Of a DNA stretch of 64,000 bases, positions 31,890-64,000 are shown piece after piece; the stretch's first letter is position 1; every line of letters starts with the position of its first letter. Under the pieces are notes generated by a model, which ran no database searches, was not told the origin of the DNA, and saw only the letters and a list, made by a program, of their open reading frames with translations. The translations under genes and the position numbers were made by a program. Location: contig NC_092646.1 in NCBI RefSeq assembly GCF_039555335.1, positions 27,767,780 through 27,831,779 of the forward strand, given 5' to 3'. Origin of the DNA: Amphiura filiformis. Its lineage: Eukaryota; Echinodermata; Ophiuroidea; Amphilepidida; Amphiuridae.

Positions 31890-31892
<3 letters not shown>

Positions 31893-32779: not shown

Positions 32780-32791
32780 CATCATCATCAT

Positions 32792-32852
<61 letters not shown>

Positions 32853-32947
32853 GTCATCGTCATCATTATCATTATCATCATCATCATCGTCGTCGTCGTC
32901 GTCATCATCATCATCATCATCATATCATCATCATCACCATCATCATT
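32780..32947. repeat. (CAT)n microsatellite with CGT runs
   Basis: About 55 ATC/CGT triplets. Reading frames of poly-His, poly-Ile or poly-Met here are low-complexity artefacts. With the (GAT)n tract near the other end, it forms an inverted pair 900 bp apart. Confidence 0.97.
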
Positions 32948-36202: not shown

Positions 36203-37174
36203 TTATGAGAAAAAATATTTTTGATATTCTTTATTTTTGGAATCAGTGGTCAACATCCTAAAAAAGTGTAATTGCTTTTAATCGCTGGTCACTCCAAAGT
36301 TATAAAACAGGGCTCCAAACAAGCTCGGACTGAGTGAAAATATGATACTTTTCGCAATTTTCAGCATTCAAGGGCCAGAGCAACATTTTGACCATGTTAA
36401 ACTGTATTTATAATCTCATTAACATCAGGAAAGTGACTTTGTTTACAAAATATATGTACAATCACAAATTTAACGTGACCGAAAAGCGACATGTGATCAT
36501 TTCACCCCCCCACTCTTAGATCATGCATAATAATAAGGACGTGTCAATAGGCATATGCCTTAAGTTGGGGGGTGTTATGGGTAGATAGAACGGTAATTTG
36601 ACACTCTAAAATGTTAAATTTCCAAGTTGCGTGTATTATTTTTGCAAGATCTAAAATTAAGAAACCCCATCATTAGAATTAATTGATAAATTTCTCTCTT
36701 GGGAATTGAACATTTGGTCATGAGATAAAAATGCCGTTATTTTGTCATCATTAGGCCATAATATAGTATGCTTTGACTTTAAATGTCTATTGAGACCCAA
36801 TTAAAGGTTCAGTGATTATTTTCAAAACGGTTATAATTGAGTTTTGATCTTATAATTACATTTTGCATCAAAATAATTCCAAAGATGTTTAATTTTTTCA
36901 GCACCGAGATAACCAAAAGTGACCACTTCTATGATATTGGGGCCAAAATAGCTCAATTTCAAGCACGGTCTTAAATTGTCAATTCGACGGGAACTTGCGT
37001 TTTGAAGCTAATTTCTCGTGCGTTTAAGAATGAAAACGCGTATTTGTAGACGGAAATAGAAAAACAGACTTTTTTTCTTTGCAAAGACATCAGTTTCAGT
37101 CAAAAATTTCAACTTTTTGGCACTTAAAATCAGGTATTAATCATGTCCATAGCATTTAAAAATGAGTCTTCGAA
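36203..37174. other. Unclassified sequence between two identical-family MITEs
   Basis: About 970 AT-rich bases with no gene or repeat partner in the window that I can see. Confidence 0.6.
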
Positions 37175-37624
37175 GGGCACACACCACTAAATAATCGTCC
37201 CATTGAAATACACGGGAAAATACAAGAAAGTAAGTTTGTTTTTCTACCCCATGTAACAACATTTTTAATATTTTGATCAAACCAATGTCTTAAATAAAGA
37301 TTAAACTTTTATTTAAATTTAATTATTTTGGGACAAGTTAAGACAAACTTGAGAGATACGAACTCCTGAACAGCGCCATCCCGAATTTCAGCCGACACGC
37401 TCGCCTCCTTACCAGTTCCGGCCATGATATTGTTCCGAGGGCCTATTACCCATGCACATTCGATTTAGAAAATTTCTGAACAGATATGTAATGTTGAGCT
37501 CCTAATCTATCTTTTTATCAAAACAACCAAGAGTCACTCAAATTTGATTCCCTCGGGACGCCGATATATTTCGCATAGGCGCTATTTTTTACCGGAATGC
37601 GGAAGGATTTAGTGTAGTGCACCC
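37175..37624. mobile_element. 450-bp MITE, copy 2 of a direct pair
   Basis: Same ends and order as 35733-36202, with a ~17-base deletion just before the right end and small indels. Very high similarity suggests recent activity or a local duplication. Confidence 0.85.
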
Positions 37625-39665: not shown

Positions 39666-40200
39666 CCTACACCTAGGCCTATATCCATTTCAAATTGAAG
39701 TGCCCCCCAGGGATTGCGCTAAGTTGTCCAAAAGCGGTCAGGCAATGATGAGTGATGCTTTGGGCTACTTTACGATGAGGTTATATGAAATAGACGTTTT
39801 TGGACAAATTGGTCAACTTCAGGCAATTTCCCCTGTAAAGAACTTTCAGTGGCGTAGCGAGAAGGGTGGGGCAAGGGGGCGAGAGGGCACGCTCCGCGCG
39901 CAATTGTTTTAAGAATTGAAGGGCATGTATCCTTTAGCCCTGGGGGCCTGGTAGCAGACCTGGTGGAAACAGGTCGAAAATTAAATACGAATACTGCCCT
40001 CTCTTTAATAATAATTTGTTAAGTTTTGGTGATGGCGCTATTTAGTGTCATGATCTCGGAAACAAGATGCATTTTTGATTCTGAATTTCTGAAGTAGGCC
40101 TAGTCAGTAAATTTTGGCATTAGCGGTGACGATTTGCGGAGCTGAGGCCATCATTTTAAAAAGAAATCGGATTTTATATGATTCTTTACTATATTCTCTT

Positions 40201-40584
40201 TAGGCCGTATAAAATTTATGTTTTGGTTCTCGTCCAGAGGATTTTCATGAATTGATGAGGGAGGAGGTGTTTTTTTTTTTTTTTTTTCAATGTAAAATTA
40301 GCATTGTCAGTAGTTTTCGGTCTTCTCCAACAGTGCTCGAGGAAACGATGAGGCCCTTTTTTTTTTTTTTTCAAATGTGAGATTCTGAGGATAAACCCCT
40401 AGAGTACCACAAAAGACTTGGAAGTGATGCTTGTTCTCTAATAAACTTATTCATATGTATGAAGATTTCATAAATCATTCCAAAGTCTAAAAAATTGAAA
40501 AATCTAAAAAAAAAAAAATCTGACAAATCCCAGAAATTGAGGAGGGAGGGACGAGAACCAAAATATTAATTTTACACGGCCTTA
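40201..40584. mobile_element. 384-bp MITE, TAAGGCCGT family, copy 1
   Basis: The ends TAGGCCGTATAAAATTTATG and ATTAATTTTACACGGCCTTA are complementary. The interior has two long T runs and GAGTACCACAAAAGACTTGG. Copies 2 and 3 are at 45171-45568 and 62268-62660. Confidence 0.9.
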
Positions 40585-44147: not shown

Positions 44148-47100
44148 GTAATTTTTAACAAAAGTTTTTAAAAACTCCTAACATGATCATGTGATTGATT
44201 GATGAATGATGAACTTGCGGCCTACATTACAATGATTAAACTTTTAAAAGTTTTGCAGTATGACAGTACAGTTTTATGTAGCGTGGCGCTTCTCCGGGGG
44301 GGCTGCTGAAAAGGTAAATTTTGCGGCCCCGTTCAATCATAATTCATCAACAGCCCGAAAAGGCAGACTGCCTTTTACTAGCCTGTATCACGTTTCAGCG
44401 AAAGTACGTCTGTAGTACATACCTGTTTTTAATGACGTTGCAACAATGTTTCTGTTGTCAGCAATAACACCTTGCATTCATACTTTTGAGTTTGTATGGA
44501 GGACGTTCGTACACATTATAAATAAGTGAAATCAGACTATCCTGAAAGGAATTTAGGTAACGAATTGAACGACACTGACCTCGCAGCAGCTAATGTTTTC
44601 ATGTAAACATGGCGGCGTCATTAGACATTTTTAGCCTACGTTTCGTAACCTACTATCGGATCGTTGAAACAAGAAAATCTCATTCCCGGCCTCATTCACG
44701 AATTCACTCACCTTCCTACACCACCAGTTGAAATAAAACTCAAAACATCCCGTGTTATTCCTCAAAACTACATGCACCTTCATTAATAAAAAATTGAAAT
44801 CCTAGTAGAAATCCGTTATCGAAAATTGTTTGATATAAAACGTCAACAAAAGTAATTTTTCTGAAGAGTAGATACCTGTCAAAATGGCGGCTCGCAGTCG
44901 CATCCCCTGCTTTGTACATGTACCCAGGTCACGGTCTGTCTACGTGACGAACAGTCAGGGTCAGAGGACAGCGCAACCTGTATGCCGTAATTCAGTGTTC
45001 GAAATAAGTGGTTGTCCTGTTGTCCGGGACAACCAAAATGTATGTCGGACAACCCAAAATGCTGTAGGCAGTTGTCCGAAGGACAACCATAAAAATGTGC
45101 ACTGCTGTTACCGAGTAAGCTTAATATAAAATGCACTGCATATATCTTGAATTGAAATGTTCAGAAGAAATAAGGCCGTATAAAATTAATGTTTTGGTTC
45201 TCGTCCAGAGGATTTTCATGAATTGATGAGGGAGGGAGGTGTTTTTTTTTTTTTTTTCAATGTAAACAGGCTTTTTTGGTTATTAGTATATTTTTCGAAC
45301 ATTAACCATAATGTCATTTTTTTTTTAAATTTTTTTTTTTTTTTTTTTTTCAAATGTGAGATTCTCAGGGATAAACCCCTAGAGTACCACAAAAAGACTT
45401 GGAAGTGATGCTTGTTCTCTAATAAACTTATTTATATGTATGAAGATTTCATAAATCATTCCAACGGCTAACAAATTGAAAAATCTAAAAAAAAAAAAAA
45501 CTCTGACAAATCCCAGAAATTGAGGAGGGAGGGGCGAGAACCAAAATATTAAATTTTTACACGGCCTAATGACCAAAAATGTTGGTAGTTGTAGTAAAAA
45601 CCTGGGCCTCAAGGAAGAACAGATGATTAATTGTGTTTTCAACTGATTGAGTGTCCCAGGTTAAAGAAGAAATAAAACAAAACAAAACAAAAAACTCCCC
45701 TAAATTTGTAGCCAATATTTTATACCTAACCTTGGCCATGTGCATGTATTGGTATTCGGTTATAATGTAAACAGCTGGCTTGGGGGGCAAATATATTTGA
45801 TATTTTATTAGCAACAAGGTGAGTTTGGGGAAAGTGTGCGATGTGTGAATATTTTAAACATTGGCGGCTGTGTACTGTTTTTTAAACTTGCAACTTAAGC
45901 TCAAAAGGTCATAAAAGTTTCGGACAACCAAAAATATTTTCGGACAACGAAAACATTTGTTGAGGTTGTCCGGTGGACAACCTCAAAAAATACCTTAATT
46001 CGAACGCTGCCGTAATATATGCGTGACATGGGCACAACAACAGGGCGAACAGGCCCACGTTGGATTCTTGGAACCATTGGATTACGGAAGAAATATTCAT
46101 ACCAGGACTGAAGCAATGTGGTCATTTCTATGTTTGTACCGGGTAAGTACCGGACATTTTTCAACACGGAGCTAGCGGAGATTACAACAAATTCGTCCAA
46201 AGGTAAGCAAAGGGTTGGGGATCGCATTTTTAACTTTGACTAACTGTTTCGGAGTTAAAAGACATGCTAAAAGTAGACCATTTCGGGGGCTGTATTTGGT
46301 GTACATGTGACGTTTTGAACAGAGTAAAAAATGACCATTTATTCGCTATTGCTGATATACTCGCCGAATGAGATCAGGTATACCGAAAAGGTTGACCCAA
46401 GTTTTTTTGACGATGGTTTGAAAAAGTGCAAAGCCAAAGAGCAATTTTATTAAATCATTAAGGCGCTACGGAACTACCGAAAATTTGATGTATACTAGTC
46501 CCATTTTTTTCAAAATTTTTAAATTTGTTTCTTTTTTTGCCGCCCCTTTTCGACTACGGCTTCTTCTTCCGCCGCCCTTCTTTTTTGCCTCCCTGATTTT
46601 ATCCCGGGGGCGAGGGGCTCGTGTCCCCAAAGCTGGGCATGATTACAAAATTTTCAAGTAGGTTTTTTCACATGGAAATTATTTTGTTTAAAAAGGTGAT
46701 CATTTAACTTAAAAAATGAGGGGTCAACCATATGCATGTCTGTAGCTCATATCAACAAAGTTATGAGCAAATGTCTGTTTTTAAAATTTTTCATTTTTCT
46801 GCGGCCATCATTGACAATGCCTGTACAAATGAGCCAGTAATGCATCATTTTTCACCACGATGATCCGTTTTACACAAAGGCGATTTTATTTTATGAAATC
46901 TAACTATCAGTCACTGCATGATCATGATGATGACTTCTGTATCAAGGATAAAGGACCAGCACTTTGACTACCGGTACGTCTCAAGTTTCTGGTGTCCAAA
47001 TTTCAAAATTTTGTATTTTCCTGGGGATTACACAGTTAAGCCATTTACTGTGGTCGCAACTTTTTGAGTTGAACGTCGCCCTCTATAATTCTCGATCATT

Positions 47101-50100
47101 AGAAGATGTACCTTCTGCGTCAGCATACTTTTCTACACAACCGAACCTTGACCTAGCAACGACCGTGTGATTGGTCAGTTCTTAAAAGCTGTGTTTGTGC
47201 CGTAAGCGCAGGTATTTGCGTAGCAAATAACTGTGCGTACAGCGTACCCAAGTTGGCTCTCATGATCGAGAATTTAATATTTTGGCTATAGGAAGGTAAA
47301 TTAATTAGCAAAATAATAGATCCAGGTGGTTGTATGATTGGTTGATGCATTCAAGTGTCAAGCGATATCGCTGGGAAGTTGAGATTTCTTCAACTTGCAA
47401 AAGCGACATCATTTTTGCCTCAGTGATTTGAATCAATTGATCGGCTCGACGCTCTGGAAATGTAAGTATAAAATACTCAGAGATGTAGACTCAAGTCGTG
47501 TGACTTGAACTTGAGTCTGACTCAAGTCACTATTTTTGGGACTTGTGACTTGACTTGCAACTTTTGCAAAAGGCCACGCCTTTTGAACTCGCCACCCAAA
47601 AATGGTGGTTTTGTTACGCTTTTCCAAATCGAGACTCGTTCAAATTGTCATATCTCTGCTTACACAAAAGGTATTGTAGTGTGTTTGGTGTCATTTTGTA
47701 GCTAAATGAGTGCCCTAGCAGACCTCCAAAGGAGAATTGTTTATCAGCTAAGATAGTGGAGTTATAGTTTTTTGAGTTGAGAATGGCCGAGGTGGTTGTT
47801 GAGGCGGTGGCGGTATGTACAAAGTCTATGAGAAATACAGATTTTGTGTGTGCGCGTTGAATCAACTGATCATATCTTTACATCCATATGGGCTACAGGC
47901 ATGGTTAAGAGCTCTTTTGAAAGATTATTAATTATGCTAATTGTTTTTTTAAAATCATTTTGAACTCTTTATGATTGGTTTAGTCTATAAAATACAAACT
48001 TTTACGTACAAAACTACCCGTTTTCACAGTAAACACTGTAGTAAGCAATGCGGGTGTCTTCAAAATCTAAAAGTTTCTGTCAATATTTAATTACTTATCC
48101 TATCATAGTCAAAGTATACATTCTCTGAGAGGAAATTTGATGAGGAATCTAAATATGGACTTACTTTTTCTGTATGGGTTAGGGGTAAAATTAGGCATCG
48201 GAGTTTCGCGCGATCACGCAAAAAGCGCAGAAAATCACGATTTTGGGGGTCCATCGCGATTTTGGTGGTCCATCGTGAATTTTGAGAATTTTGCCAAACA
48301 CACTACTTTTCAATGTAAATTCACCAATAATAACCTTTTTACAACATAACAGGCTTCCCGTTAGTGTGCGTCATTGCGACAAACCTGCTGAGAAGTAAAT
48401 TCTGCAATATTTGTAAATGCAACGTCAGGAAATCGTGCACTTTTTGCATGCTTTCCGAACGATCGCTGGCCTGGGGAAGTCCCGATTGATTTATTTACAA
48501 CCAAGCATGTGCCGCTAACGTGCGGTTAATGTTTATTTAATTATTAAATCACAACCTGACAATATTCAATTTTTAATATTTTAAGTTTATTTTCTCATAA
48601 ATAATCTAGGTTTCCTTTATTAGTATTATTATTACGATGAATAAAAGCAATTTTAAAGACAATATCCAAATGATAACCCCTTTTTCGTATTATTTGTGGT
48701 AGCGCGTGTTTTAGTTTTTGTAGCATCAACAACACGTTAATTTAAAAAAAGAAATGCGGAAGTGAAAGTACGAACGAAAATTGCTCAAGATTGACAGACT
48801 TTGCTCATGTTTTTGCACCTGTTTTTGACCACGTTTCGGACCAAAACTGACACAGAAATGAGAAAAATTAGCATGGCGCAAACGGAGATGGAATATCACG
48901 GCGAAAATGCACTTTTATTTTTTTTTAACAATCAACATTTGATGAGGTGTAGACCCAGGGTACGTGTGTATCGTCATAATCGTGAATTTCAGATGGAAGA
49001 AAAAAAATCTGTCTGGACGCAAGTTTTTGACTAGCAGCAGGGTAAATACTGGAAAACGCATTTTCGCGCTTTTTGACTTGAATTTTCGCGCATTTTCGCG
49101 CTTTATAAAAAACCGGCCGCGCATTTTGCCGTTTTAAATCGCGCGAAACTCCGGTGCCTAGGTAAAATGTTGCAGTTCAAAATATGTTGGATTGTAAAAA
49201 AAAATTGAACATATTTTGGGACACCCTGTATTCCGAGATTACCAAACAGCTGTGATTTTTTTTCTTTCCAAGTCAGTAGGCTCCCCCTAACCTCTATCCA
49301 AATCAATGTTGTTTACTGTCAGTTTATAACTGCAAGTTAGTAATACACAAATGTAAGCAATGCATTAAGTGACCCATTTTTTATTTGGAATTTTTTTTAT
49401 TCCACCCTGTATAACTTCAAGGTCACCCTGTACAATGAGTTGAAATGTGTATACCGTATTTCGTCAAATAGTCGCCCCCCCTCAAATAAACGCCCCACCA
49501 CGTTTTTCACCCAAGATGTTTCAAAAATTCCGATATTTCCATGCTATCTTGTGTAGTACATGTAAGCTTACCAAGATGCTCCCATGGTCGGTAATAGCAG
49601 CAATAAATGGCGAAAATCTGCATCGTAAACCCGGAAGTGAACCAAAAGTCAGTGTCAAAGGTTCATAGTTCGTCATTTTAGCGTGACTTTTAAGCTTACC
49701 TAATGATTTTAACGGGAATTGTCGTGCTAAAAATGACCTCTAATAAACGCCCCCCCTTGGGAAAATGTAACGCCCCCGGGGGCGTTTATTTGACGAAATA
49801 CGGTATTTGAATTGCTTATGCCTTCAGCTTTTCAAAAATGTATACTTTTGCTAGTTTAGGGTTGATAGTTGTGTTCTAATTTGAAACTTGATTGGTGTAA
49901 AAATTCATAATATTTGTGATGTAACGCTAAGGGTGGCGAGTTCAAAACACATGGCCAAAATGACTTGACTTACTTGTGACTTACACAAAATGACTTGGAC
50001 TTGACAAAAATGACTTGTCACCAACGCAAGTCTGAGGTTACTTTCCTGTAAATTGAAATTTATGGACTACCGTAGAATTTGTGAATATTAGTAGACGGTA

Positions 50101-53100
50101 GACCTAAAACTTGTTCTTGAACTACAATGTACCAATGTGACCATAAGCTTCACTATTATAGTGATTAGTGCATCAGACTTTGTTAGTACTGTACTCCGAA
50201 ACTCAATTTGATTTCCGCCATATTGAATACCCAATCAACAAATCCCACAATGACCAACGGGTGAATAGACTTGTAGTGACTTGTGACAAATTGTGACTTA
50301 CTTGTGACTTGACTTGTCATTTGATGACTTGTGACTTGACTTGACTTGCAACTTTTTCAAAATGACTTGACTTACTTGGGACTTGGACATAAGGACTTGT
50401 GACTTGGACTTGACTTGCAAAAAATGACTTGTTGACATCTCTGTAAACACTGAGCATGTGTGAGAATCGCTTTTCTGCAAAAGCAATAGAGTATAAATTC
50501 AGCTTGCTAGTAGAGCAGCTAGAGCTAGAGAACAAATGTTGTGCTTTCAACATCTAGTCAGATTTGCTGAAGAATGACACCGTGCATTTAGCAATGGAAG
50601 TTCATTCATAGTAAACAGCGGAATGTTGACAACAGATCGCATCAAAAATAATGCTAAAATGATGCACTTCACCAAAATTTTGAACTGTTCAAAATAAGCA
50701 ATTTTTTATTCACCAGGGCATCTGATTTGCTATTGTAGCTACATGTACTTTGCTAAGCCTGATAAGCGTAGCGGTACAAACCGTAAAAGCGAGAATGTTG
50801 AATTTAACTTTGTTAGAATGTTTCCTGCAAAATCTTATGCAAAAATCAAGTTTGAAACATGTTTTTTGTGCAAATTATGATTAAGTCGTATTTTGCGAGT
50901 TTTTTCTTTGAAAATTGAATTCTAAACGCCCCACATTTTGAACATGCAACGCCCCCGTTTTTTAATGTAGTCCCTAACATTTAATTTGCTACGGTACGGT
51001 ATTTAAATATTTTGAATTGTTTTTGTTTGGTTTTTGCAGATCGGCTGTATTTTGCCACCTTGCGGAATAAACCCCGGAGTACTACTAATACACACTACTT
51101 CAGTATAGATGATGAATTAATGTATGAAAAGTAAGTCAAACAAGTGTTTTTCAATTCTCAGTCATGGTTAGGACTCAGAAATCATACTGTGTCCAAACTG
51201 CAGGGTTCCAAAATAGAGACTTCAGAATTTTTTCATTCAGCCTCATCAGGAGCAGACCTGGGATTCGAACCCTTGACCCTTGGATTTACAGTCCAACGCT
51301 TAAACCGTTAGGCCAGGCTCCCCTCTACCTCAGGTACAATATTTCAGGGATAGTTTTCCATGTTTTTTACAGATGCAAGAGAAAACATGTAATTTTGTAA
51401 AGTATAGAAAACTATGTCTGAGTTGGGTTTGATGCGTTATTTGTATGTAAATGACATTTTTACATTTTTCATCTTCCAAAGAATTCATTGCAGTTGTCAA
51501 TTACTAAAACCCAGGATATTTTTTATTCGCTATAAATGCGCTTTATTTAAACGCAAATAAATTTTTTTCATATGTGCTCGCCATTACCTCTGTTTCTCTA
51601 AACACAGGCCTTGTGTTTTAGATTTTTGCAGGTGAGTTGTTTTACTGCTCCCCTGACATTTTTAAGGAGAGTGGTCAAGCTGTTTTAAAAGGAGATTGGT
51701 GGGCGAGCCAGGAGAGTTGGTCTTCATGCCTAATGGACACCTAGTAGAATGCAAAAAGTGTAATTTTGGATTCAAGTATATTTTTACTGATCAATATTTA
51801 GTCATAATTTGTTAATAAACTTCTGTGAAAACTATTGGGTAAAGTCATAAAAATCAGCTCCTGTGATCCTGCATTTAAGGGGATTGATTTATAGCTCACA
51901 CCAAAAGCATTTTAAAAGGAGAGCTGTAGGAGAGTGACAGCTCTAGCTCTCCTCAAAACAAAAGGCCTGTAAACAAGTATACTCAAAAAACAACATTCAT
52001 AGGAGATGACGCCTTGCCGCAGTAGGCAAACCCTGGCTTTCCATAACCGACCAATCAATTGTCATATTATCGCTTTAACAACTTCTTTGTTCATGAGCTG
52101 ATAGCTTCGTAAGAAAAAACATTTAAGAAAACCACTTACTTTCAAACGCTAGTGCGAACCCTGCTTGCGGATAATGAAAGATTGATGAGAGTTATGATGT
52201 TTAAGATTAGTTGTGTAAATTACACTTAATGGCAATTTGGCAACCACATCCATGTTGACATTTCCATCAAATATGATATTGTACGATTTGTTGTGCTTCT
52301 TTTAAAATCTATTCAGGAGTGCAGTAACCATGGTAACATGACTTGCATGATCATAGTCTTTAACAGTTCACATACCATAGAATTTTAGAAACGTTTGTAT
52401 TATGGCTCTGGTTTTTTTAACATGTATCAAAAGGCTAAATGACACTTTGGGAGACCCCAGCAGAAACACATGACCTATTTCTGGATAACTTTTTATATTT
52501 TTATGTAGTGTATACCTAGGCTAATCTCCCATAGCTTAACAAAATTTGTCCCAGTTTTCTTTCTTTACTTATGACAAGACCAAATGTCCAATTGTTAACG
52601 GAAATTTGTCAACCTAACAAAAGTGACTAATTTGTTTTGTTTACAAAATAAAACCAGATCAGCTCTAAGTATTCTGTTCAATATTTTATGAACACATGTT
52701 AGTACAAGATCCAAGAAATCCAAGATTTACCTAAATAATTTCTAACATGAAAAAATTTTGAGCACTTGAAAATTATGTTTCGGACGTTACATTTTCCGTT
52801 AACAATCTTGCTCTATTTTTAACATCTTCTAAGTGATTGTTTTATCATGTAAAACATACACAAATACTTTAAATGTTTGCCTCAGGGCAATATAAATAAT
52901 TGCAAGTGCAAATTTTGTATCGGTTGAATGTTTTCAAATTATGGTGAAGCATTACTTAAATGGGTCTCATTTTCCGTTAACAGTTTTGTAACATCCGAAA
53001 GAATACATATTGTCTTATAATTATGTGAAGAACAATAGTAGCTTTGAATTTTCATTATTAAGTTGAAGTAGACATGACAACAAGTATCTAAATGAAAAAT

Positions 53101-56100
53101 GATTTCACTTCCTCTTGACTTTATGTAAAATGTTGGCCACACAACATTTCCGTTAACAATGGTAACATCCGAATCAAATGTAACATCCGAGACACAAAGA
53201 GTGACATTTTGTTGAAGAAATTTAATTAGAGGGGAAATAAAAAGGTCAAATGGATCTGAAATCATGGGAAGGCCATAGTAGAAATATTTTTTACCATACC
53301 CAGTTTTGTTCTTTGAGTGTGCAAACTGTTAACATGTCAAGTTTGTTTCGGATGTTACAAGGCAAAATGTTAACGGAAAGTGAGGCCAATAACAGGGCAT
53401 TGTAAGAAGATTTTAGAATATACACTTAAATGAATGTGAATTTCTAGTAAATATGGTGTACATCCTCATTTTCCTAATATTGCTGACTCCATTTTACCTT
53501 TGTAAACCTTGCTAGTGGAAAAAATTACAAGTTGTTAGCTCTACAATATCTATTGTCTCTATGCATAACACATCAGATAAAAAGCAACATAATTAATTTG
53601 GTTCACTCCTTTCAAATTAATTTCATTACTGACATATACACATGTCCTAAGAAATTTATTTTAAATTTGAAAAGCAACTTACACTGAATATTTCTCCATT
53701 ACACTAGCAAAATACTTTGATTTAAAATGTGTTTCGGATGTTACCCATTTTTTGTTAACAAGTCCAAAATGAAGTTGTAATTTCAATTAACTTTATAATA
53801 TTTTAGCATTAGATGATATCTAAAACTTATTGAAAATAATTAAGTAGCAATTTTGTCATAATCATTTATTTCAAAATTGAAAAAAAGCTGCATTTTCATA
53901 AAAAAGTGATCATTTTAACATAAAATATATGTATGTACGTATGTGTTAGGCCTATATTGGAATCACTATGCACATATACCAGAAACGAAGCAGGAGAAAT
54001 ACTTACTATGCTTCGTACAGCTTCATTATGTCCGATAAAACAATAAATTATCAATGGAAACAAATTAACCACTAAGAAAAATACTCTTACAACAGAACAA
54101 GTTTCATGGGAATTATTTGTTAACACCGACTTATGAGCTGTTTTAATACGATCAGTTTTTGCATATTTTATATGTGTGCAAATGATAAATGATTGTGCCT
54201 TGCATTAAAAAATGTATGAGTGTCCATCATGGCAACATACCTGTTATAATGCAATGATCTCATGTTTGTTAATTCAACTTCCAACCATCAAACTTTGTAA
54301 AAATGTTAACATCATGTAACATCCGAATCACTGCCTTTAATTATACACATATTTTGAATCATTTGAATAATTTCAACAGGTTTTCTCATTCAAAGTGATT
54401 GATATTATGCTAAAATAATGAAATGTGCCAAATGTTTCCGAGTGTGATCGGAAATAGGGTAACATTTGGTGAAAAAATAGGATTTATTCAAATTTCCATA
54501 AAAAATGGTTTTAATTTGGTGGAAAGGATTATATTTTAATAATCTAAAAAAAAAAAAAAAATTTGTCGCAAATTTTGTGTTTTCCGTGCCGCTAAAGTTG
54601 CGTGCATTATTTGTAGCGTGAGGGACGGACACTATGTTGCATTTTTATGAAAATACTTCTCTTAGGAAGAGATTAGCTATTGTCAATTTTTGTTTACAGA
54701 TTATTAGTACAACCCTTGCTACAGGAAATATCAATGAGATTTGTAATTGGATGTCTTCCAGAAGATAGGAGGGGTCATGGAAGGTGAACTCTAGAAATTT
54801 TGTCCGTCCCTCACAGATAAAAATCCAAAAAGTTTTTTTCTCTGAGAAACATTTCAAGGAATTAAATTAGCATATACCATATCTATCAATATTAGTGCTC
54901 ACCTTACTAGAGATAAAGAAACTAAAATTCCCAATCTTTAAATCTAAGAGTTATTAGTCCTTAATTGATGTGAGGGACGGACATGTCCGTCCCTCACACC
55001 AACTTATTTTGGATGTACAGGTACCAATGTATGTTGAGTGAAAATATTTTTGTTTACATATCAATAGTGCAACCCCTGCCACATGAAATATCAATGAGAT
55101 TTTTAATTAGATGTCTTTCAGAAGAGAGTTGGAGGTCATGGAAGGTGAATGCTAGAAATTTTGTCCGTCCCTCACGGATAAAAATCCAAAAAAGTTGTTT
55201 CTCTGAGAAATATTCTAAGGAATTAAAATAGCATACACCCTATCTATCAATATTAGTGCTCACCTTACTAGAGATAAAAGAAACTAAAATTACCAATCTT
55301 TAAATCTAAGAGTTATTAGTCCTTAACTAATTAAGGGACTGACATGTCCGTCCCTCACACCAACTTATTTTGGATGTACAGGTACCAATGTATGTTGAGT
55401 GAAAATAGTTGGCCACTAAATATTAAACCCAATTCTTCTACCCAGTCAGAGAGTCTGTCTAAAACAAATTCATGCCAATCCCAGAAGGTCATGCTCCCAA
55501 ACATTTGGAATTGAAGATCCTGTTGCTAAAAAAAGAGGGTCTGTCCGTCCCTCACACCAACTTATTAAAATTAATATTATTGTTAATTACTGCTTCTTTA
55601 TCAGTAAAACTACAATTGGATATTGAAAACAAACAGCATGAAGTAAAACTTCTGTGTAATTTGAAATTAAAAGTGAATTACACACTGAATAAGATATTTA
55701 GGCCATCATATGTCCGTCCCTCACAGACAAGCTGTCCGTCCCTCACACAAGTATTTAGCGGGTATAATCATATGATATTTCCACTGAACTTGAATTATTT
55801 TGACAACTGCATTTCATTTAGATGTCAAGGATAGCATTAGGGGTGGATTTGGAGAAATCTTGCCAAATTTGAAATTTTGTAACATTTTGTCCGTCCCTCA
55901 CATAGAAAATGTCCGTCCCTCACATAAACTTTGGACCCGCTTCATAGGCGCCTTGAAAACAAACTGAGTCAAATTTCTTAATTTTTGGAGGGATGGAACA
56001 TTACTCTTTCATGAAAAGTATATATTGATTAAACATGTGTATAAGTTTCAATAGAAAACTTGAAGATGTAACTAATGGTAGTGATTGCTTATTCTATTGA

Positions 56101-57578
56101 TTTCCGTCCCTCACACGTGAAAATTTTGTATAGCTTAAATAATTGATGCACATGTGGCAACATTTTCATGCATGAAATAACTATTGGTTGAAGGGTTATA
56201 TATTAACCTAACTTAGAGGAATAAATTTTAACAAGGGTTAATTAAACACAGCAATTAATCTATTGATGTCCGTCCCTCACGTGAGGGACGGATTCCGATC
56301 ACACTCTTCCCTCAATAAGTTCAATTAGATTGCAATTGCATGTTAACGTAATGTAACATCCGAAACACTCTTAAGTTGAGAAGACGTAAAAGAAAGCCTG
56401 ATTATGATTGTAAGAAAGGTGTAGCCCTTTGTATTATCAACTTAATGCTTCAGGGAGCTAATTAATTTGGTTTATTATGATGTCCAGTGCACATTTACAA
56501 TAAGGATGTGGGTAACAATGTATATGAATAAATGCCATATCAGTACATGTACATGTATATACATCTAAATTAAAAAATTTCTTCAGTAAGATGAAAATAT
56601 CATTTAATGATGATTAGATTTTCAAGTGATAGGTTTAATCATCTGACAGTGATTATCATTTACATTTTTGAACTAATATGTGCTTAGAAATAGGGCCAGA
56701 TACCTGCAAATATTGCATGTTAACAAAATAATGTAACATCCGACACCCACGAGTATCTAGAGTTACATTTTTACTACAAATGCATTATCAAACTTATTTT
56801 GATATGTCAGTACTTGGTTATCATTACCTTGTTCACATATGGATTAGCAATATATGTGGATGAAATTAATTACATTTAGAGCATATTTTTGACCACCAAA
56901 CCTGCTATTTTGCCCATTTTCAGTTTCATATGCCTGAAAAGTTACCTAAAAGTGATCGCAGAATGGCCATATTTGGTCAATAGTAACTTGGACTCATTAT
57001 TTTCCTATGACAACTAATTTGGTAACTAATGGGCATTACAGGAAGCAATATCTAGCTTTGGCAACAAGATGCTTTTTTATGAAAAAATCTCATTTGGCCA
57101 AAGGGTCTACAAAGTTTACAGACCAAATGAACAGAATTAAGCTCCAAGTTTTGTATTTTCATAAAATTCAAGTCATCTGCTTTGAGAAATGACATATTTT
57201 AAGTGTCTTCTGTCAATTTCATTTTTACCCTCTCAGTTCACACTTTTGATACATGTTAAAAAAACCAGAGCCTTATTCTGGTTTACCCTGTGCACCCTGT
57301 GACTTCAAGACAATTCTGGTTTAGGCTACCCTGTACCTTCAAGACAATTCTGGTTTTCCCTGTGCAACCCTATTTTTTAGGAGTTAGGGTAAAGGTTAGG
57401 GTTAGAATTAGGGTTAATACTAGTTTTGTGTGCAGGGTATACCAGAATTATTCTGAAACGTTATTGACCACCTATAAACCAATTTGTTTTCTTTGATTAC
57501 AGTTTCTATGCAGATTTCGGTCCTCTAAATTTGGCCTTGTTGTACAGATACTGTTGTAAAGTGAACAAAAAATTAAAG
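44102..57578 (+). CDS. CDC14: CDC14 dual-specificity phosphatase, N-terminal part (join 44102..44147, 51040..51130, 57503..57578; continues past the window)
   Basis: CDC14 phosphatases remove CDK-type pSer-Pro marks and act in mitotic exit, centrosome, cilia and DNA repair functions. Three exons with phases 1 and 2 join to 213 bases, 71 residues, starting [15 protein letters not shown]. Hallmark stretches of the CDC14 N-terminal domain follow: [56 protein letters not shown]. All junctions are GT..AG. The catalytic HCxxGxxR loop belongs to later exons that I could not find before 64000. Introns 1 and 2 are 6.9 kb and 6.4 kb and mostly transposons. Whether it is co-orthologous to vertebrate CDC14A and CDC14B is an inference; an A/B assignment is not possible here. 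Confidence 0.93.
44993..46019. mobile_element. 1.03-kb hAT-like element, GGACAACC subterminal repeats
   Basis: The TIR is CAGTGTTCGAAATAAG against CTTAATTCGAACGCTG. The flanks CCGTAATT and CCGTAATA are an 8-bp duplication with one change, the hAT signature. Both ends carry clusters of TTGTCC/GGACAACC in both orientations (about five left, four right). It is split by MITE 45171-45568. No transposase remains. Confidence 0.8.
45171..45568. mobile_element. 398-bp MITE, TAAGGCCGT family, copy 2 (nested)
   Basis: The ends TAAGGCCGTATAAAATTAAT and ACACGGCCTA match copies at 40201 and 62268. The segment between the two T runs differs from the other copies (a replaced ~65-base block). Confidence 0.88.
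48192..49160. mobile_element. 969-bp nested element with perfect 8-bp target duplication
   Basis: The TIR is TAGGCATCGGAGTTTCGCGC against GCGCGAAACTCCGGTGCCTA. GGTAAAAT at 48184-48191 is repeated exactly at 49161-49168. An 8-bp duplication fits the hAT type. Words such as TTTTCGCGC recur near the right end. No transposase frame. Confidence 0.9.
49452..49805. mobile_element. 354-bp nested MITE, TIR TACCGTATTTCGTCAAATA
   Basis: The right end TATTTGACGAAATACGGTA mirrors the left TACCGTATTTCGTCAAATA. Inside the TIRs are CGCCCCC runs. TA ends. Confidence 0.92.
51040..51130 (+). CDS. CDC14: CDC14 exon 2
   Basis: The acceptor TTTTTGCAG and donor GAAAA/GTAAGT enclose 91 bases that read in phase 1 in and phase 2 out. 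The encoded [20 protein letters not shown] and SIDDELMYE are diagnostic for CDC14. Confidence 0.95.
51248..51322 (-). repeat. tRNA-like sequence (anticodon GTA), probably a SINE head or tRNA pseudogene
   Basis: On the minus strand, box A-like TGGCCTAACGGTTTAAGC, an anticodon stem TTGGA/TCCAA with loop CTGTAAA, and box B GGTTCGAATCC are in tRNA order and spacing over 75 bases. The acceptor stem pairs 6 of 7 only if two extra bases precede its 3' strand, and the T stem is broken. A functional tRNA-Tyr is therefore unlikely. Confidence 0.6.
51605..51969. mobile_element. 365-bp element, CAGGCCTTGTGTTTT ends
   Basis: CAGGCCTTGTGTTTT at the left and AAAACAAAAGGCCTG at the right are complementary with one gap or mismatch, flanked by TAAACA on both sides. 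Several GGAGAG.TG words are inside. Probably hAT-like or similar. Confidence 0.6.
52404..57272. mobile_element. 4.87-kb TIR element with iterated GTTAAC / TAACATCCGA motif
   Basis: The exact ~30-bp TIR begins GGCTCTGGTTTTTTTAACAT and is mirrored at 57243-57272; the flank TTAT is repeated on both sides. Inside, a composite motif (TGTTAAC, then within about 4-15 bases GTAACATCCGA, or its reverse) recurs at about 52594, 52778, 52973, 53143, 53348, 53733, 54304, 56341 and 56718. No transposase frame is recognised; the longest frames are about 100 codons. A second element is nested at 54440-56306. Confidence 0.82.
54440..56306. mobile_element. 1.87-kb nested element with iterated TCCGTCCCTCAC motif
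   Basis: The TIR is GAGTGTGATCGGAA against TTCCGATCACACTC, flanked by TTCC on both sides. The 12-mer TCCGTCCCTCAC or its complement occurs about 14 times across the element. Two copies form palindromes: head-to-head at about 54971-54998 and tail-to-tail at about 56269-56292. Two ~200-bp internal blocks (about 54660-54900 and 55040-55270) are direct repeats. No coding region. Confidence 0.82.
57503..57578 (+). CDS. CDC14: CDC14 exon 3
   Basis: The acceptor TTTGATTACAG and donor AAG/GTAAGT enclose 76 bases completing an Asn codon and then [20 protein letters not shown] and NKKLK, ending in phase 0. This is a typical CDC14 N-terminal domain sequence. The following exon was not found. Confidence 0.95.
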
Positions 57579-57691
57579 GTAAGTATGGGAGTTGGTATGG
57601 ATGTACAATGTATGTGTATATATTTGGGTCCATATGTAATCGCTCATGAGTCTTGATTATTTTCTGTAGTTGGGTCATCTGGAGCGATTGC

Positions 57692-57810
57692 CGAAAAGGG
57701 TGCAACTCGACTAGTCTGATTACAAGACTGCCCTACCCCAACCCTAAACCCTAACCCTAAACTCTGTAAACGAGGACTGGACTCAAGTCTAGCAAGTTGC
57801 ACCCTATTCG
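57692..57810. mobile_element. 119-bp MITE, GGGTGCAACT ends, telomere-like core
   Basis: CGAAAAGGGTGCAACTCGACTAG-type left end and CTAGCAAGTTGCACCCTATTCG-type right end are complementary with a few changes (short core GGGTGCAACT). The middle holds AACCCTAAACCCTAACCCTA, like vertebrate-type telomere repeats. Confidence 0.7.
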
Positions 57811-58086
57811 TAATTGTACCGGTCATCTTTTGTGACTACAAATTCTGTCCAAAATGAGGGATGGACAGCGCATGTTGATGACAAAATGCGTTGCTGGCTT
57901 TATGTACAAGTCTATCTCATCTGTCATGATTGAGTTGCACTCCTATTCCTAAATGTTTACATCATTAGAATTAGATCTAATTGAGTACTTGTCATAAATA
58001 CATCCTATGTCTGATTATTAATTATGACCTATCTGCTCCGAGGAGCATTTCATGTTGTATTCCATTGATCATATCGTTGCTGTTCT

Positions 58087-58196
58087 GGCAAAACCTTTTA
58101 ACACCAATAGCTGCTATGTGTTAAATATGTACAATACAATATATTGTATTGTACATATTTAACATGTGGCAGCTATTGGAGTTATGAGGTTTTGCC
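58087..58196. repeat. 110-bp near-perfect hairpin
   Basis: The arms GGCAAAACC...TAAATATGTACAATACAAT and the complement meet at the centre ATATAT. A few mismatches and small bulges occur in the outer part. Hairpin MITE or a miRNA-like stem; sequence alone cannot decide. Confidence 0.85.
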
Positions 58197-58840
58197 TGAT
58201 TGATGATTTAATAGGATCATCAATTAGTTAATGTCCTGATGATTTCAATATGATTTTATTCAATGTCATCGGAAATTAATTAAAATGATGATTAAAGGTG
58301 TAGGGCTGTGCAGATGCATCAATTTCAAAAAGAATTGAATCTTGTAGTCATAGTAGCCTAACTAAAAAGTTGTTTGATAAATTTTTTTATCAAAACATAT
58401 AATGTGTCACTATGTTCCCTCAATTTCATGTGTATCATCAAGTAATATACGGATCAGCACTAGCACATTGTATTCTGTATACATGTGATGTCCGCTTCTT
58501 CAGCATGTTCAGTTCTGAATAAATTAATTAAAACCATTTTTCTGAGTTAACCAACATTGGTACAAATGGTCAAAAAAATTGGAAGCTAGTGTCATGTTTC
58601 CTATTTCTTAGCTACGCATTTTCCAGGGCAAACACTGTCAAAAATTTTGTTTTTTGTACCCAAAAATATCATTTTGGGGACAACTGAAATAGTTAAAGTT
58701 TATTTCGTTATTTCGGAGACTGATTGTACATTCATATTATATTGTTCACATAATTTGTTCGATATTAGAATGCAATGATCCCATGATCAATTTTGTATAG
58801 TATGCATTGTAATCTGAGCATGTTTTTACTGGTTGAGCAC

Positions 58841-59072
58841 CTCGCATTATAGCACTACTTTCGGGCTCTGTTGCTATTAGTATACTATCCAGAGAGGTTG
58901 CGTCAGCAACCTCGCGCTGACGCGCTTCGATTGAACGTCTCGCGCACGCTCGGTTCCTCACGCTACGCGCTCGCTAAGTCCGTGAGGGCCACAGACTGCG
59001 GCTACTCGCATTATAGCACTACTTTCGGGCTCTGTTGCTATTAGTATACTATCCAGAGAGGTTGCGTCAGCG
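58841..59072. repeat. 68-bp direct repeat pair
   Basis: CTCGCATTATAGCACTACTT through GAGGTTGCGTCAGC occurs at 58841-58908 and 59005-59072. A third truncated start (CTCGCATTA) follows at about 59077. Confidence 0.9.
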
Positions 59073-59151
59073 GCTACTCGCATTACTGCAAATTCACCTT
59101 CACCAGCAATAATGAGCATTTTAATTCTTTTACAAATATAACATTCTTAAG

Positions 59152-59593
59152 TTAAAGCCATATTATAACATTTTCAAACAAAATAGATTAGCATTTCTTT
59201 GCCATAAAATATTAGCTTTTACTGTCAGATATATCCCTTTTATTTTCGAGCGAACAACTACGGCAAAGCAAAGAAAATTGGAATTTACTACCAGCGACAG
59301 CGGTCATGTTGTGGTACGACCCTTTGTTGTGTATCACCATCCCGCACGCCGTGTAACGTACTGTGTGTTATGAACATCGTGTATGCGTTCGACTAATAAT
59401 TCCATCGTAATAATAAAGCTACCGGTTCGGCGTTTTATTCAAAATCTCGCTTTTTGACAAAACTACAGCACCTAGAGTCTTGATTTTTGCAGGGTATATT
59501 GGTTTAATAAAGTACAATTTAATCGTGTAAAAAAGGAATTTTATAAATTCAGTGAGGGCGTCTTCCTCAGCAAATGTTATAATATGGCTTTAA
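59152..59593. mobile_element. 442-bp MITE with TTAA ends, copy 2
   Basis: It begins TTAAAGCCATATTATAACAT and ends ATGTTATAATATGGCTTTAA, a perfect terminal match. Most of its length aligns with 7370-7836. Confidence 0.92.
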
Positions 59594-60009
59594 CTGTACA
59601 TGTACGTACAATATATAAATGTACAATTAGTATCCGAAATAAGGAAAAGCCTATATTCTGCTCAAGTGTTCTGAAAATATTTCAGTTGTTCCAAAACTGT
59701 GCTGTATCACATTTGTGTAGAGCATTGATTTGCAATTCTAGTCAATAAGAAACCCCTGGGCAGGTAAAGGTTAGTATAAATTTGCTTCCTGCTCTAAACA
59801 GAATTGATCCAGCCTGGTTCTTGGAAATTGAAGGTTGTTACACTTTACCAATTATTAACTTGTGTGTACATGACTGCATGTAGGTCATTGTTAATGGTGC
59901 CATTTATGGTAATAGACATGTAGATTGCAAAATCGATACAAGTAAATACTAGTGGCAAATGGTGGTCATAGACCACAAACCTAGCTGGGGCATGTTGGTG
60001 TTTTAGAGG

Positions 60010-60660
60010 TAGGCCTATCTGACCCCTGCAAAATGTTCCAAAAAAGGTTCCACTGGTCATGAGGTTTGGCGTCACCGAGTTTGAGTCCCTTACTCCTTAC
60101 AAACGCCCAGAAAATTAAATTCTAAGATTTGACCCAGATAACCTTTGACCTGACCCCTGCACAGCATTCCCCTGGTCAGTAAGTTTCTTGTCACAAGAGT
60201 TTGAGCCCCGTATCCCTTACAGATGTCCAGAAAATGCATTTCGAAACTTTGACATCTGCATGACCTTTGACCTGACCCCTGCAAACTGTTCCCCTGTTCA
60301 TGAGATTTGTTGTCACCGAGTTTGAGTCCCATACTCCTTACAGATGCCCAGAAAATTAAATTCTAAGATTTGACCCAGATGACCTTTGACCTGACCTCTG
60401 CACAGCGTTCCAAAGTGTTCCCCTAGTCAGTAAGTTTCTTGTCACAAGAGTTTGAGCCCCGTATCCCTTACAGATGTCCAGAAAATGCATTTTGAAAATT
60501 TGACCTCTGCATGACCTTTGACCTGACCCCTGTAAAATGTTCCCTGATCATGAGATTTGTTGTCACTGATTTTGAGCCCCACACCCCTTACAGATGTTGA
60601 GATAAGGCAATTGTAAGATTTTACCCCCTTAATGACCTTTGACCCCAATTCTGAGTGCAA
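60010..60660. repeat. ~120-bp tandem repeat with TGACCTTTGACC in each unit
   Basis: Landmarks TGACCTTTGACCTGACC at 60261, 60380 and 60512, a variant at about 60139 and a shorter form at 60633 give spacings of 119-132 bp. Alternate units are more alike (for example AATTCTAAGATTTGACCCAG at about 60119 and 60360), a two-unit higher-order period of about 240 bp. Other shared words are TTTGAGTCCC/TTTGAGCCCC and CCTTACAGATG. Confidence 0.9.
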
Positions 60661-60689
60661 GGTATGGGCACTGGGTAAAGCCGATGCGG

Positions 60690-63600
60690 GCCTGTTTCAA
60701 AATGGGTCATCAACTTGCTCAATTTTGAAACTTCCTTCTAAATGAAGTTACAGTACATTTTATGTAAGATTCATATCTATCCTTTCATAAAATAACATTT
60801 TTCTTGTGAAAACTACAAAATTTCTTAATTATTTTGATGTTTTTTCACAGGTATACAAAAACGCAAGCATGTCGGACGGAATTTTTGGAAACAAATAACA
60901 GGGCTCCTTGAGCACTTATAATTCAATTGTTTTATTTTTTTGTACTTGCACAATAAATATACACCTTACTAAGTTGATAAATATAAAAATTAAAACCATA
61001 TGTCATCAACTTTAGATTTCTTGCAATTTTAGAAATGTAAACACTAAATTTTCCGTCCGACATGCATGAATTTTCCAATAAGTTTTTCCTGTAAAAAACT
61101 ACTCAAAATTTTATTTATTTATTCCTGTGAAGTATCCACGAATTTAATGTAGAAAATGAATCAATAGTTGTTTTAGTCAATTACCTTTAAAAAAATGGAC
61201 AAATTAAGGGCTACATTTTTTTCTGTCCGACATGAAAACCAGCATGTCGGACGGAATTCTTTACAAGGGCACATTTTGCATTGCCCCCATGCAGGATAAT
61301 GGGATATTTCCCACTTAAAAATGACCAGTTTCATCACATGTACTTTCCTGCAGTCTGATTGGACAAAAGTAGGATGTTCTGTACAATGTACACGATATGC
61401 AAATTAGCCTAGGATAATCTGTCATTTGTGCAGAACAAGGTGTACATGTAGCAGTTTTTCTGGCTTCTAATCTGCTCACACATGTCTGCTTACACTGTAT
61501 GTGTGTGTGTTCACTGTGAAGGTTTACAAGCTCATATTTTAATTCCAATTAATGACTTTTTTACATTATTTTGTGTAATTGAAAATAGATTAGTAGTCTG
61601 TTATTTTAAATCCCAACACTTTTCATGATAACTAAGGGCCCTGATGTAGGGCCTCAAGTACATTGAAATTTGAAATTTTTAGCTAACAAGTTACCGCTTC
61701 AAATACATGTGTAGGCCGACACACTCACTACACTGTACAATGTACACAGAGAAGAAAACATAAAGTGCATGCATGTCAGTTTATTTAAAATGTTGAAGAA
61801 ATAAATGCCACTATAGACTAAATGACTCATAGCCAAAATAGCCACTCTGAGTGTATGGAGACTGGAGGCGGGTATTATGGTCTCAGGTATGGCATGTTTT
61901 TGTTTGTTTTAAACATAGTTTTCGCTAAAATCTACATCGATCAGAAGCTCATTTTGCCTGATACTGGTATCTTTACAATTACACACAAAATAATGTAAAA
62001 GAAGCCAGAAAGACTGCTCATCCCACAGTGCCCTGTGCAAAGCATTTATTTGCAGTCTGCACATAATTATGTGCTACATGTACATCTTGTTCTGCACAGA
62101 TTAGGCTAATGAAAGTTGATTCTTAGTTTCCCGTCACCCGCCCGCATCGTCTTTTCAATTTGACCGAAACTTTCATTATTTTTTATAAAAAAGTCAATTA
62201 TCTGCAAATTGAGATGGCAATAACCAAAATTGAAACTCTCAAAATATCTGACATCCCCTGCTGATCATAAGGCCGTGTAAAATTAATATTTTGGTTCTCC
62301 TCCCCTCCCTCCTCAATTTCTGGGATTTGTCAGATTTTTTTTTTTTTTAGAATTTTTCAATTTTTTAGACTTTGGAATGATTTATGAAATCTTCATACAT
62401 ATAAATAAGTTTATTAGAGAACAAGCATCACTTCCAAGTCTTTTGTGGTACTCTAGGGGTTTATCCTCAGAATCTCACATTTGAAAAAAAAAAAAAAAGG
62501 GCCTCATCGTTTCCTCGAGCACTGTTGGAGAAGACCGAAAACTACTGACAATGCTAATTTTACATTGAAAAAAAAAAAAAAAAAAAAAAAAACCCTCCTC
62601 CCTCATCAATTCATGAAAATCCTCTGGACGAGAACCAAAACATTAATTTTATACGGCCTAATCAGCATTTTTCCTTAGTTGTAGGTAGAGGATGTAGTAA
62701 ATAATGGAATTTAAGGGTTACCTCGTCATGTTTCAAGTGCCTACAAAAATTGTAAGCACTTTAAAAAAAAAACAAATTCAGATTTTTTTAAATCTGTTGC
62801 AAAATGTCTGTAATGATGATCTTAGCATTAATACCTGTTTTGAGATGGTCTTTCATCAACAATATCTAGGTAATAGCCATATAAACAAAAGTTTTGACAA
62901 TAATGAAATTTTCCAAAATAATGAATAATGAAATCATGACCTCATATTTCACTGAAAAAAATGTGATTGGAAACTAATCATTTCACTTCATTAGCCTTAT
63001 CCTAGGCTAATTGGCATTATTGTGTACATTGTACAGAACATCCTACTTTTGTTCAATCAGACTGCAGGAAAGTACACATGATGAAACTGGTCATTTTTAA
63101 GTGGGAAATATGCCATTATCCTGCATGGGGCCAATGCAAAATGTGCCCTTGTAAACAGTTCCGTCCGACATGCTGGTTTTCATGTAGCCCTTAATTTGTC
63201 CATTTTTTTTAAAGGTAATTGACTAAAACAACTATTGATTCATTTTCTACATTAAATTCATGGATACTTCACAGGAATAAATAAATAAAATTTTGAGTAG
63301 GTTTTTACAGGAAACACTTCTTAGAAAAGAAAATTCATGCATGTCGGATGGAAAATTCAGTGTTTACATTTTTAAAATTGCAAGAAGTCTAAAGTTGATG
63401 ACATATGGTTTTAATTTTTTAAATGATTAACTAAATAAGGTGTGTATTTATTGTGTAAGTACAAAAAAATAAAACAATTGAAATATAAGTGCTCAAGGAG
63501 CCCTTGTTAATTGTTTCCAAAAAATCCGTCCGACATGCTTGTGTTTTTGTATACCCATGAAAAAACGTCAAAATAGTTAAGAAATCTTGTTGTTTTCATA

Positions 63601-64000
63601 AGAAAAAGTTTATTTTATGAAAGAATAGATATGAATCTTACATAAAATGTATTGTAACTTCATTTCTAAGAAGTAAGTTTCAAAATTAAGCAAGTTGGGG
63701 ACCAATTTTCAATTCATTATCATGTCGGACGGAATCTAGCATGTCGGATGGAATTTGTCAATATTTCCATTATTACATCTTTAATAAATAGAGGTCAATA
63801 CTTTAAAAGTATATACAGCATTAGTACATGACCTTATCTTTATAATGCAGGTAAAAAATATTAAATTTTGAGAAGTTGCTAAAAAAGTCAACATTTCATT
63901 CCGTCCGACATGATGCATTCCGTCCGACATGGCCCATTTTTGAGATGTTGCCGTTTCCTTGACAATGATTGTTGAATAAAGATTGTATGAGAAATTTAAT
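60690..64000. mobile_element. Large inverted-repeat element with iterated TCCGTCCGACATG motif (continues past the window)
   Basis: The left arm 60690-61420 is complementary to the right arm about 62990-63695 (for example TGCTCAAGGAGCCC against GGGCTCCTTGAGCA). The loop of about 1.55 kb holds MITE copy 3. TCCGTCCGACATG or its reverse occurs at about 60870, 61051, 61224, 61241, 63163, 63344, 63528, 63721, 63740, 63901 and 63919 (two with an A/T change). The right end is not in the window, so the true termini are unknown. No coding region. Confidence 0.75.
62268..62660. mobile_element. 393-bp MITE, TAAGGCCGT family, copy 3
   Basis: The ends TAAGGCCGTGTAAAATTAAT and ATTAATTTTATACGGCCTA, with two A runs in place of the T runs, show it lies in the opposite orientation to copies 1 and 2. 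Confidence 0.9.

Follow-up and report, generated by a model that had tools for sequence, protein, structure and literature searches.

Most work on transposases has been done on bare DNA, and how a transposase finds and pairs ends that lie kilobases apart in packaged chromatin is, as far as we know, an open problem. In the subterminal repeats of hAT elements and the TnpA sites of CACTA/Spm elements, a short word (CpG-containing in Spm) recurs in many copies and in both orientations, clustered near the ends; we know of no fixed step of ~187 bp between such words. In Galileo, several sites for the THAP domain lie within long inverted repeats, near 70, 561-577 and 701-718 bp, according to the available part of PMC3688188. 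Kolobok elements duplicate TTAA and have 5'-RR..YY-3' ends, while KolobokP elements make 3-5 bp duplications with no strong target preference and carry terminal direct repeats, as set out in excerpts of PMC9587614; for Sola2, AT-rich 4-bp duplications are reported in the cases described in the accessible text of PMC3627910. Here we analyse a window of 64,000 nucleotides from the ophiuroid Amphiura filiformis (NC_092646.1, positions 27,767,780 to 27,831,779, forward strand), in which five DNA transposons, A to E, lie in and beside a CDC14-like gene. Three of them, C, D and E, carry different CpG-bearing words spaced on one ruler of ~187 bp. This ruler, which does not figure in the initial annotation of the window, is the surprising part of the locus and is statistically solid within the window.

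The start of the gene is near 44.08 kb, where a first exon was assigned by eye, and further exons lie near 51.04 and at 57.5 kb; a Pfam DSPn match on the last of these (E-value 4.1e-10) bears out its earlier labelling as CDC14. Its first intron holds elements A and B, the next holds C with D nested inside it, and E lies downstream of the 57.5-kb exon. The elements, with positions counted from the first letter of the window, are:

44993-46009, unstranded, element A, hAT-like, with subterminal GGACAACC
47478-50443, unstranded, element B, hAT-like, with GACTTG words mainly subterminal
52404-57272, unstranded, element C, non-autonomous DNA transposon split by the insertion of D, in a CDC14 intron
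54440-56306, unstranded, element D, non-autonomous DNA transposon nested inside C
60697-63945, unstranded, element E, foldback-like, right end probable

All five have mobile borders, that is, terminal inverted repeats (TIRs) with a target site duplication (TSD), as the initial annotation had proposed, although for E the right end is probable rather than certain. Identical 30-bp TIRs GGCTCTGGTTTTTTTAACATGTATCAAAAG bound C on both sides, with the TSD TTAT at 52400-52403 and 57273-57276, and 14-bp TIRs GAGTGTGATCGGAA bound D, with TTCC at 54436-54439 and 56307-56310. The borders of E come from a blind search (70 x 70 bp round both ends), which returned an imperfect TIR (TCAAAATGGG / TCTCAAAAATGGG) and the TSD TGTT, a combination equalled in score by 1 of 200 random region pairs. 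The element had been drawn from 60690 to 64000; its right end is probably at 63945, so that it does not leave the window. Its inverted arms (60696-61417 and 62997-63712, about 720 bp) are 89.6% identical by BLAST. A and B have the appearance of hAT elements. A has the TIR CAGYGTTCGAAWTAAG, which begins with CAG (CAGYGTTCGAA), and 8-bp flanks CCGTAATT/CCGTAATA alike at 7 of 8 positions; B has the TIR CAGAGATGT and 8-bp flanks aaaatact/taaacact, of which only 6 of 8 positions agree, a weaker case than A. Both thus combine short TIRs starting with CA, near-matching 8-bp duplications and subterminal word clusters. The open reading frames (ORFs) scanned for a transposase, one inside B and one overlapping A, gave no Pfam match. 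The duplications of C, D and E are of 4 bp (TTAT, TTCC and probably TGTT), which sets them apart from hAT and agrees with the earlier suggestion of a different superfamily. P-type elements, too, make 8-bp duplications, as against 4 bp in C, D and E.

Repeated words were counted on both strands and compared with 300 dinucleotide shuffles of each element, the ends used for these counts and for the CpG ratios below lying one base (A, B and D) or 55 bases (right end of E) off the final borders. A has 7 copies of GGACAACC (shuffle mean 0.03, maximum 1), B 28 of GACTTG (mean 1.43, maximum 6), C 8 of TAACATCCGA (mean 0) and 11 of GTTAAC (mean 0.99, maximum 4), D 14 of TCCGTCCCTCAC (mean 0) and E 8 exact copies of TCCGTCCGACATG (shuffle 0), or 11 if CpG transitions are allowed, these being the sole differences in the three imperfect copies. 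The shuffles rule out chance enrichment for all five elements, and the predicted excess over shuffled counts therefore holds throughout. The words had also been described as private to their elements; this is so for A (7 of 8 copies in the window), for TAACATCCGA of C (8 of 8), for D (14 of 14) and for E (8 of 8), but not for GACTTG (28 of 46) or GTTAAC (11 of 80). The word of C is bipartite, GTTAAC-N(5-11)-TAACATCCGA, with 8 of 9 TAAC(A/G)TCCGA copies having a same-strand GTTAAC 5-11 bp upstream.

The exact words of A are subterminal, and 26 of the 28 words of B are no more than 80 bp from its left end or 485 bp from its right, which accords with the subterminal, hAT-type arrangement expected of them. 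A spread over the whole length had been claimed for C, D and E. It nearly holds for D, where the words occupy almost the full element and are absent from the first 178 bp, but not for C, which has none in its outer 190 bp on the left and about 530 bp on the right, nor for E, where they are confined to the inverted arms and the right flank; the E centre (61256-63159) has no copy even with up to 3 mismatches allowed. Copies in D derive partly from a 361-bp duplication, and three right-arm copies in E pair with left-arm copies through the palindrome. Word orientation is mixed within each of C, D and E. Where same-strand neighbours lie within 60 bp of each other in A, C, D and E, 7 of 8 pairs are spaced by 18-22 bp (partly dependent pairs, two each coming from A, D and E) and the other pair, from A, overlaps at 8 bp.

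For the lattice test, sites less than 45 bp apart were merged into clusters, periods of 60-400 bp were searched, and 2000 permutations (floor p 0.0005) placed clusters uniformly with a minimum gap of 45 bp. With exact words, the best period is 188 bp in C (R 0.962, p 0.0025), 185 bp in D (R 0.982, p 0.0005) and 189 bp in E (R 0.990, p 0.0005), and the C half-site GTTAAC by itself gives 188 bp (p 0.001). In the hAT-like B the test is negative (p 0.45); A has just 2 clusters, below what the test needs. The sites, and two features that bear on the test, are as follows:

52594-54326, unstranded, C sites left of D: clusters near 52594 (half-site only), 52788, 52982, 53165, 53348, 53744, 54119 (GTTAAC only) and 54311
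56342-56743, unstranded, C sites beyond D on the right: two composite words, 56342-56363 and 56719-56743
54618-56292, unstranded, D lattice: the 14 exact TCCGTCCCTCAC fall into 10 clusters that step by about 172-205 bp (best period 185 bp)
60868-61255, E left-arm lattice of TCCGTCCGACATG: 60868 (minus), 61052 (plus), 61222 (plus, one CpG transition) and 61243 (minus)
63160-63931, E right-arm and flank lattice: 63160 (plus), 63340 (minus), 63525 (plus), 63721 (minus), 63740 (minus), 63900 (plus) and 63919 (plus), with one CpG transition each at 63340 and 63740
54686-55410, plus strand, tandem duplication of 361 bp inside D, a length of roughly two lattice steps
62268-62661, minus strand, miniature inverted-repeat transposable element (MITE) inserted in the E spacer, removed before the phase test

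Successive clusters are 185, 175, 186, 175, 205, 180, 177, 202 and 172 bp apart in D (one decayed copy included), 184 and 180 bp apart in the left arm of E and 180, 185, 206 and 179 bp on its right, and 194, 194, 183, 183, 396, 375, 192, 166 and 379 bp apart in C (GTTAAC included, D excised). C stays in phase across two-step gaps of 386 and 380 bp and a three-step gap of 583 bp, so that a minimum-distance rule by itself is insufficient. The period survives the removal of one copy of the D duplication (186 bp, R 0.984, p 0.0003), and the arms of E tested singly give p 0.016 (right) and p 0.03 (left). Further, in a scan of all 8-mers (at least 3 different letters, at least 5 clusters, span of at most 3.2 kb, nested inserts excised, the satellite at 24.3-35.1 kb excluded), the words of E (7.69) and C (6.57) ranked first; D, excised there, scored 9.63 separately and was also top in the uncut window. 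Their periods all fall at 185-190 bp, and all three exceed 8 of 8 Markov-1 null runs, whose peaks were 4.56-5.18 with scattered periods. The ends of the elements also lie near the lattice, with residuals of -9/-35 bp in C, 6/23 bp in D and 21/26 bp in E and lengths of 15.86, 10.09 and 15.03 periods; all six ends fall within 35 bp of it, for which a rough count, with the limit set afterwards, gives a chance of 0.003.

The lattice could be a relic of growth by tandem duplication of a ~187-bp unit, all but a selected word having since diverged. Nucleosome-length monomers are frequent among satellites, and a large satellite elsewhere in the window (24470-35017, 111-bp units of 3 x 37 bp) has 185-bp higher-order arrays in places; moreover, D does carry its genuine 361-bp tandem duplication, and the arms of E are an inverted one. 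However, outside the words, in-phase units score no higher than random pairs in gapped comparison (medians 19.5 versus 19.0 over 30 pairs in C, 17 versus 17 over 26 pairs in D; the left half of E, with 2 unit pairs only, is uninformative). Ungapped flank identity, in which the known duplicates of D and E are included, is likewise similar in phase and at random (C 0.286 versus 0.290, D 0.286 versus 0.276, E 0.316 versus 0.282). Head-to-tail duplication would not yield the two word orientations found within each of the three elements. Since the units share no detectable similarity outside the word and their orientation is mixed, simple tandem duplication is unlikely. A satellite array without mobile borders is ruled out by the TIRs and TSDs, and the units are not detectably homologous in C and D, barring the duplication in D.

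Alternatively, the sites may be those of a transposase or accessory protein spaced by the geometry of its complex, through looping or a filament, with nucleosomes irrelevant. The 18-22 bp doublets would fit about two helical turns, and the long repeats of Galileo carry several transposase-domain sites, according to the available part of PMC3688188. Set against this, the lattice steps of D scatter with a standard deviation of 12 bp and those of E with one of 10 bp, and helical phasing of plus-strand sites (10.0-11.0 bp) is not significant in any element, with values of 0.73 over 6 sites in C (p 0.31), 0.53 over 11 sites in D (p 0.35) and 0.87 over 5 sites in E (p 0.14). As such phasing would presumably be required by a rigid complex on naked DNA, this null result weighs against the geometric explanation, which we regard as rather unlikely.

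The CpGs of the words have fared differently from those around them. Outside the words, the observed/expected CpG ratio is 0.16 in C and 0.25 in both D and E, against 0.58 in A, 1.03 in B and 0.75 in the window. When words are recognised by their other letters, 47 of 52 word CpGs are intact (C 9/9, C half-sites 5/7, D 14/14, E 19/22), compared with 36 body CpGs seen where 167 are expected (Fisher p 2e-19 assuming an ancestral CpG ratio of 1, p 1e-14 at 0.75). Aligning the arms of E, 5 of 6 word CpGs and 0 of 4 body CpGs are common to both. The CDC14 introns round the elements are CpG-poor in places (0.26-0.5), from which methylation of the gene seems likely. Gene-body methylation after insertion probably contributes to the poverty, but it was rejected as a full account, as B and an element at 59 kb, both in this gene, are not CpG-poor, A has an intermediate ratio and the word CpGs survive. 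Together, these observations suggest that the words were kept under selection while the element bodies decayed.

The words of D and E have TCCGTCC in common, which the initial annotation took as a sign of one recognition system with a diversified target word. The shared letters exist, but they are weak by themselves (shuffle p about 0.015, for one pair of 21 compared). In the words of A, C, D and E, every one of the six CpG contexts reads TCCG(A/T), a form taken by 8.6% of the 1412 CpGs elsewhere in the window; this pattern was noticed post hoc, and its presence in the hAT-like A indicates convergence as much as descent. Better evidence than common letters is the design that C, D and E have in common: besides the lattice, the first site in each is single, on the minus strand and 171-190 bp from the left end (a half-site in C). 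In both D and E, a word doublet adjoins the right TIR. The TIRs themselves were set aside as word copies, their similarity to the words being weak (p 0.02 for the C half-site, 0.08-0.98 in the other three comparisons). Overall, the initial observation of motif-bearing elements is partly confirmed and its interpretation partly supported.

We tentatively favour a reading that makes C, D and E non-autonomous DNA transposons of the cut-and-paste kind, with predicted protein sites, one per nucleosome linker. The inner sites, often paired, would be arrayed one cluster per nucleosome repeat of about 187 bp. An autonomous partner at another genomic site would supply a matching transposase, or an accessory DNA-binding protein, and this protein would bind the word with its CpG in the linker DNA that joins one nucleosome to the next. 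As the ends lie near the lattice phase, a packaged element would expose all of its sites and both ends together, and many weak sites may sum to specific recognition and draw the ends together. We infer that the period equals the nucleosome repeat, that the word is protein-bound and that the protein is element-encoded. With somewhat less confidence still, C, D and E could represent a class of transposons with an array on a nucleosome ruler, in which a family-specific CpG word stands one cluster per linker, the ends lie near phase, the element is recognised as chromatin and the ruler is kept while the word changes. If true, the use of a single ~187-bp ruler by three different words would provide evidence, from natural sequences, that the spacing of transposon sites has adapted to nucleosomes.

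The words might instead be sites of a host protein (a repressor, an insulator or a CENP-B-like factor) that phases nucleosomes or silences the element, serving host or element regulation rather than transposition. The outer 190 and about 530 bp of C, where transposase binding would be expected, are without words, and CENP-B, itself transposase-derived, binds a 17-bp box in the 171-bp repeats of alpha-satellite, as stated in excerpts of PMC5371998. However, each element has its own word, unlike what a single host protein serving all would require, and the words of D and E stand directly beside their right ends; we consider such a role improbable.

Several points weigh against sites placed by nucleosome linkers and read by an element's own protein. 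The data comprise a single copy of each element in a single 64,000-nt window. None of the 16 ORFs that lie entirely within C, D or E and reach 60 aa or more has a domain above cut-off (best sub-threshold matches DUF3244, E-value 0.013, and COX2_TM, E-value 0.16). The vacant lattice places, 7 in the E centre and 3 in C, hold no degenerate word above background. In the 8-mer scan, the unrelated words GCCAAAAA (126 bp, 5.63) and TGCAAAAA (200 bp, 5.29) also beat the 8 null runs, so that this null is somewhat lenient. As to CpG, one D copy, at 55331, has decayed by 3 changes and stands outside the 47/52 count, the comparison of CpG loss between the E arms reaches only p 0.05, and a CpG-poor insert also lies at 33.7-34.7 kb, a stretch outside the lattice scan. 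The termini of E (TC..GA) are unlike those of C and D. Finally, no AT/GC phase pattern was seen by eye between the sites, nor a strong 10-bp AA/TT/TA signal (assessed with no null run). Sequence-encoded nucleosome positioning thus gives no clear signal in the DNA between the sites, and any phasing of nucleosomes would need a bound protein.

Other features of the window were recorded alongside. The MITE in the E spacer belongs to a ~390-bp family with ends GGCCGTATAAAATTAATGTTTTGGTTCTC present in three copies (40202-40582, 45173-45567 and 62268-62661); it has moved recently, since the copies at 62268-62661 and 40200-40584 have 4 differences in 385 aligned bases. Adjoining E on the left (60043-60644) is an array whose ~120/251-bp units abound in TGACCTTTGACCT, a sequence that we take to resemble the nuclear-receptor DR1 site. 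Within an element at 3802-6219 (TIR GGTCTGTCACACTAC, TA flanks) there is a 132-bp minisatellite, and its word has the 9-bp CGTCCGACA in common with element E (shuffle p 0.001). At 33733-34670, inside the 111-bp satellite, is an element with a 28-bp TIR CAGTGCAACAAGGCATAAATGCCCTAAA and TA flanks, the CpG ratio of the region being 0.38. One further element occurs in two copies, at 7370-7836 and 59152-59593 (22 differences in 439 aligned bases), and a 67-bp exact duplication lies at 58841-59071. A tRNA-like match in a CDC14 intron (51250-51322, minus strand, 32.9 bits) is probably a tRNA-derived short interspersed nuclear element. Duplicated long open frames at 223-2676 and 15277-18057 resemble, by eye only, seven-pass receptors with a cysteine-rich N-terminal domain. 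A composite element at 35733-37624 has direct repeats of 470/450 bp (448 identical, 3 mismatched and 24 gapped positions), both of which have short inverted ends of their own (GGG..CCC), and is flanked by ATAG on either side; its layout is that described for KolobokP in the available part of PMC9587614.

Exact-pattern scans gave 0 matches in viral contigs and 7 loci in genome contigs, six in actinobacteria and one in Salinigranum, which were taken as chance matches in GC-rich genomes and not as relatives. No description of nucleosome-spaced words in transposons was found among the titles and abstract openings returned by searches of the Creative Commons-licensed literature of PubMed Central, a body that leaves subscription papers, Repbase and most preprints outside. 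Compared with hAT elements, B follows the known pattern and has no lattice, whereas C, D and E have one. Among superfamilies with short duplications, no one definition of Kolobok, KolobokP or Sola2 is matched entirely by C, D and E. C and D resemble Kolobok and KolobokP, as far as the excerpts of PMC9587614 and PMC6004289 describe them, in their RR..YY ends (GG..CC and GA..TC) and 4-bp duplications. They differ, together with E, in that the duplication is TTAT, TTCC or TGTT instead of TTAA, that self-comparison revealed no long terminal direct repeats with TIRs of their own and that no transposase was found; the ends of E, moreover, are not of the RR..YY form. For Sola2, TTAT of C fits an AT-rich 4-bp duplication and TTCC of D does not, and again no transposase was found.

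E has the long inverted repeats with iterated words of Galileo/Foldback elements (P superfamily), with several copies of a short site, some of them hundreds of bp inward. It should be noted that the three sites given in the available part of PMC3688188 form no ~187-bp lattice, and that the words of C and D are not confined to inverted repeats. The CENP-B boxes of alpha-satellite share a short box, a transposase-derived binder and a nucleosome-scale spacing with what is proposed here, whereas alpha-satellite monomers, as presented in excerpts of PMC5371998, are homologous and in tandem; in C, D and E the word is all that the units have in common, and the arrays lie inside single transposons. 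CENP-B boxes are the nearest functional parallel, and words with such a spacing could possibly arise inside mobile elements before these turn into satellites.

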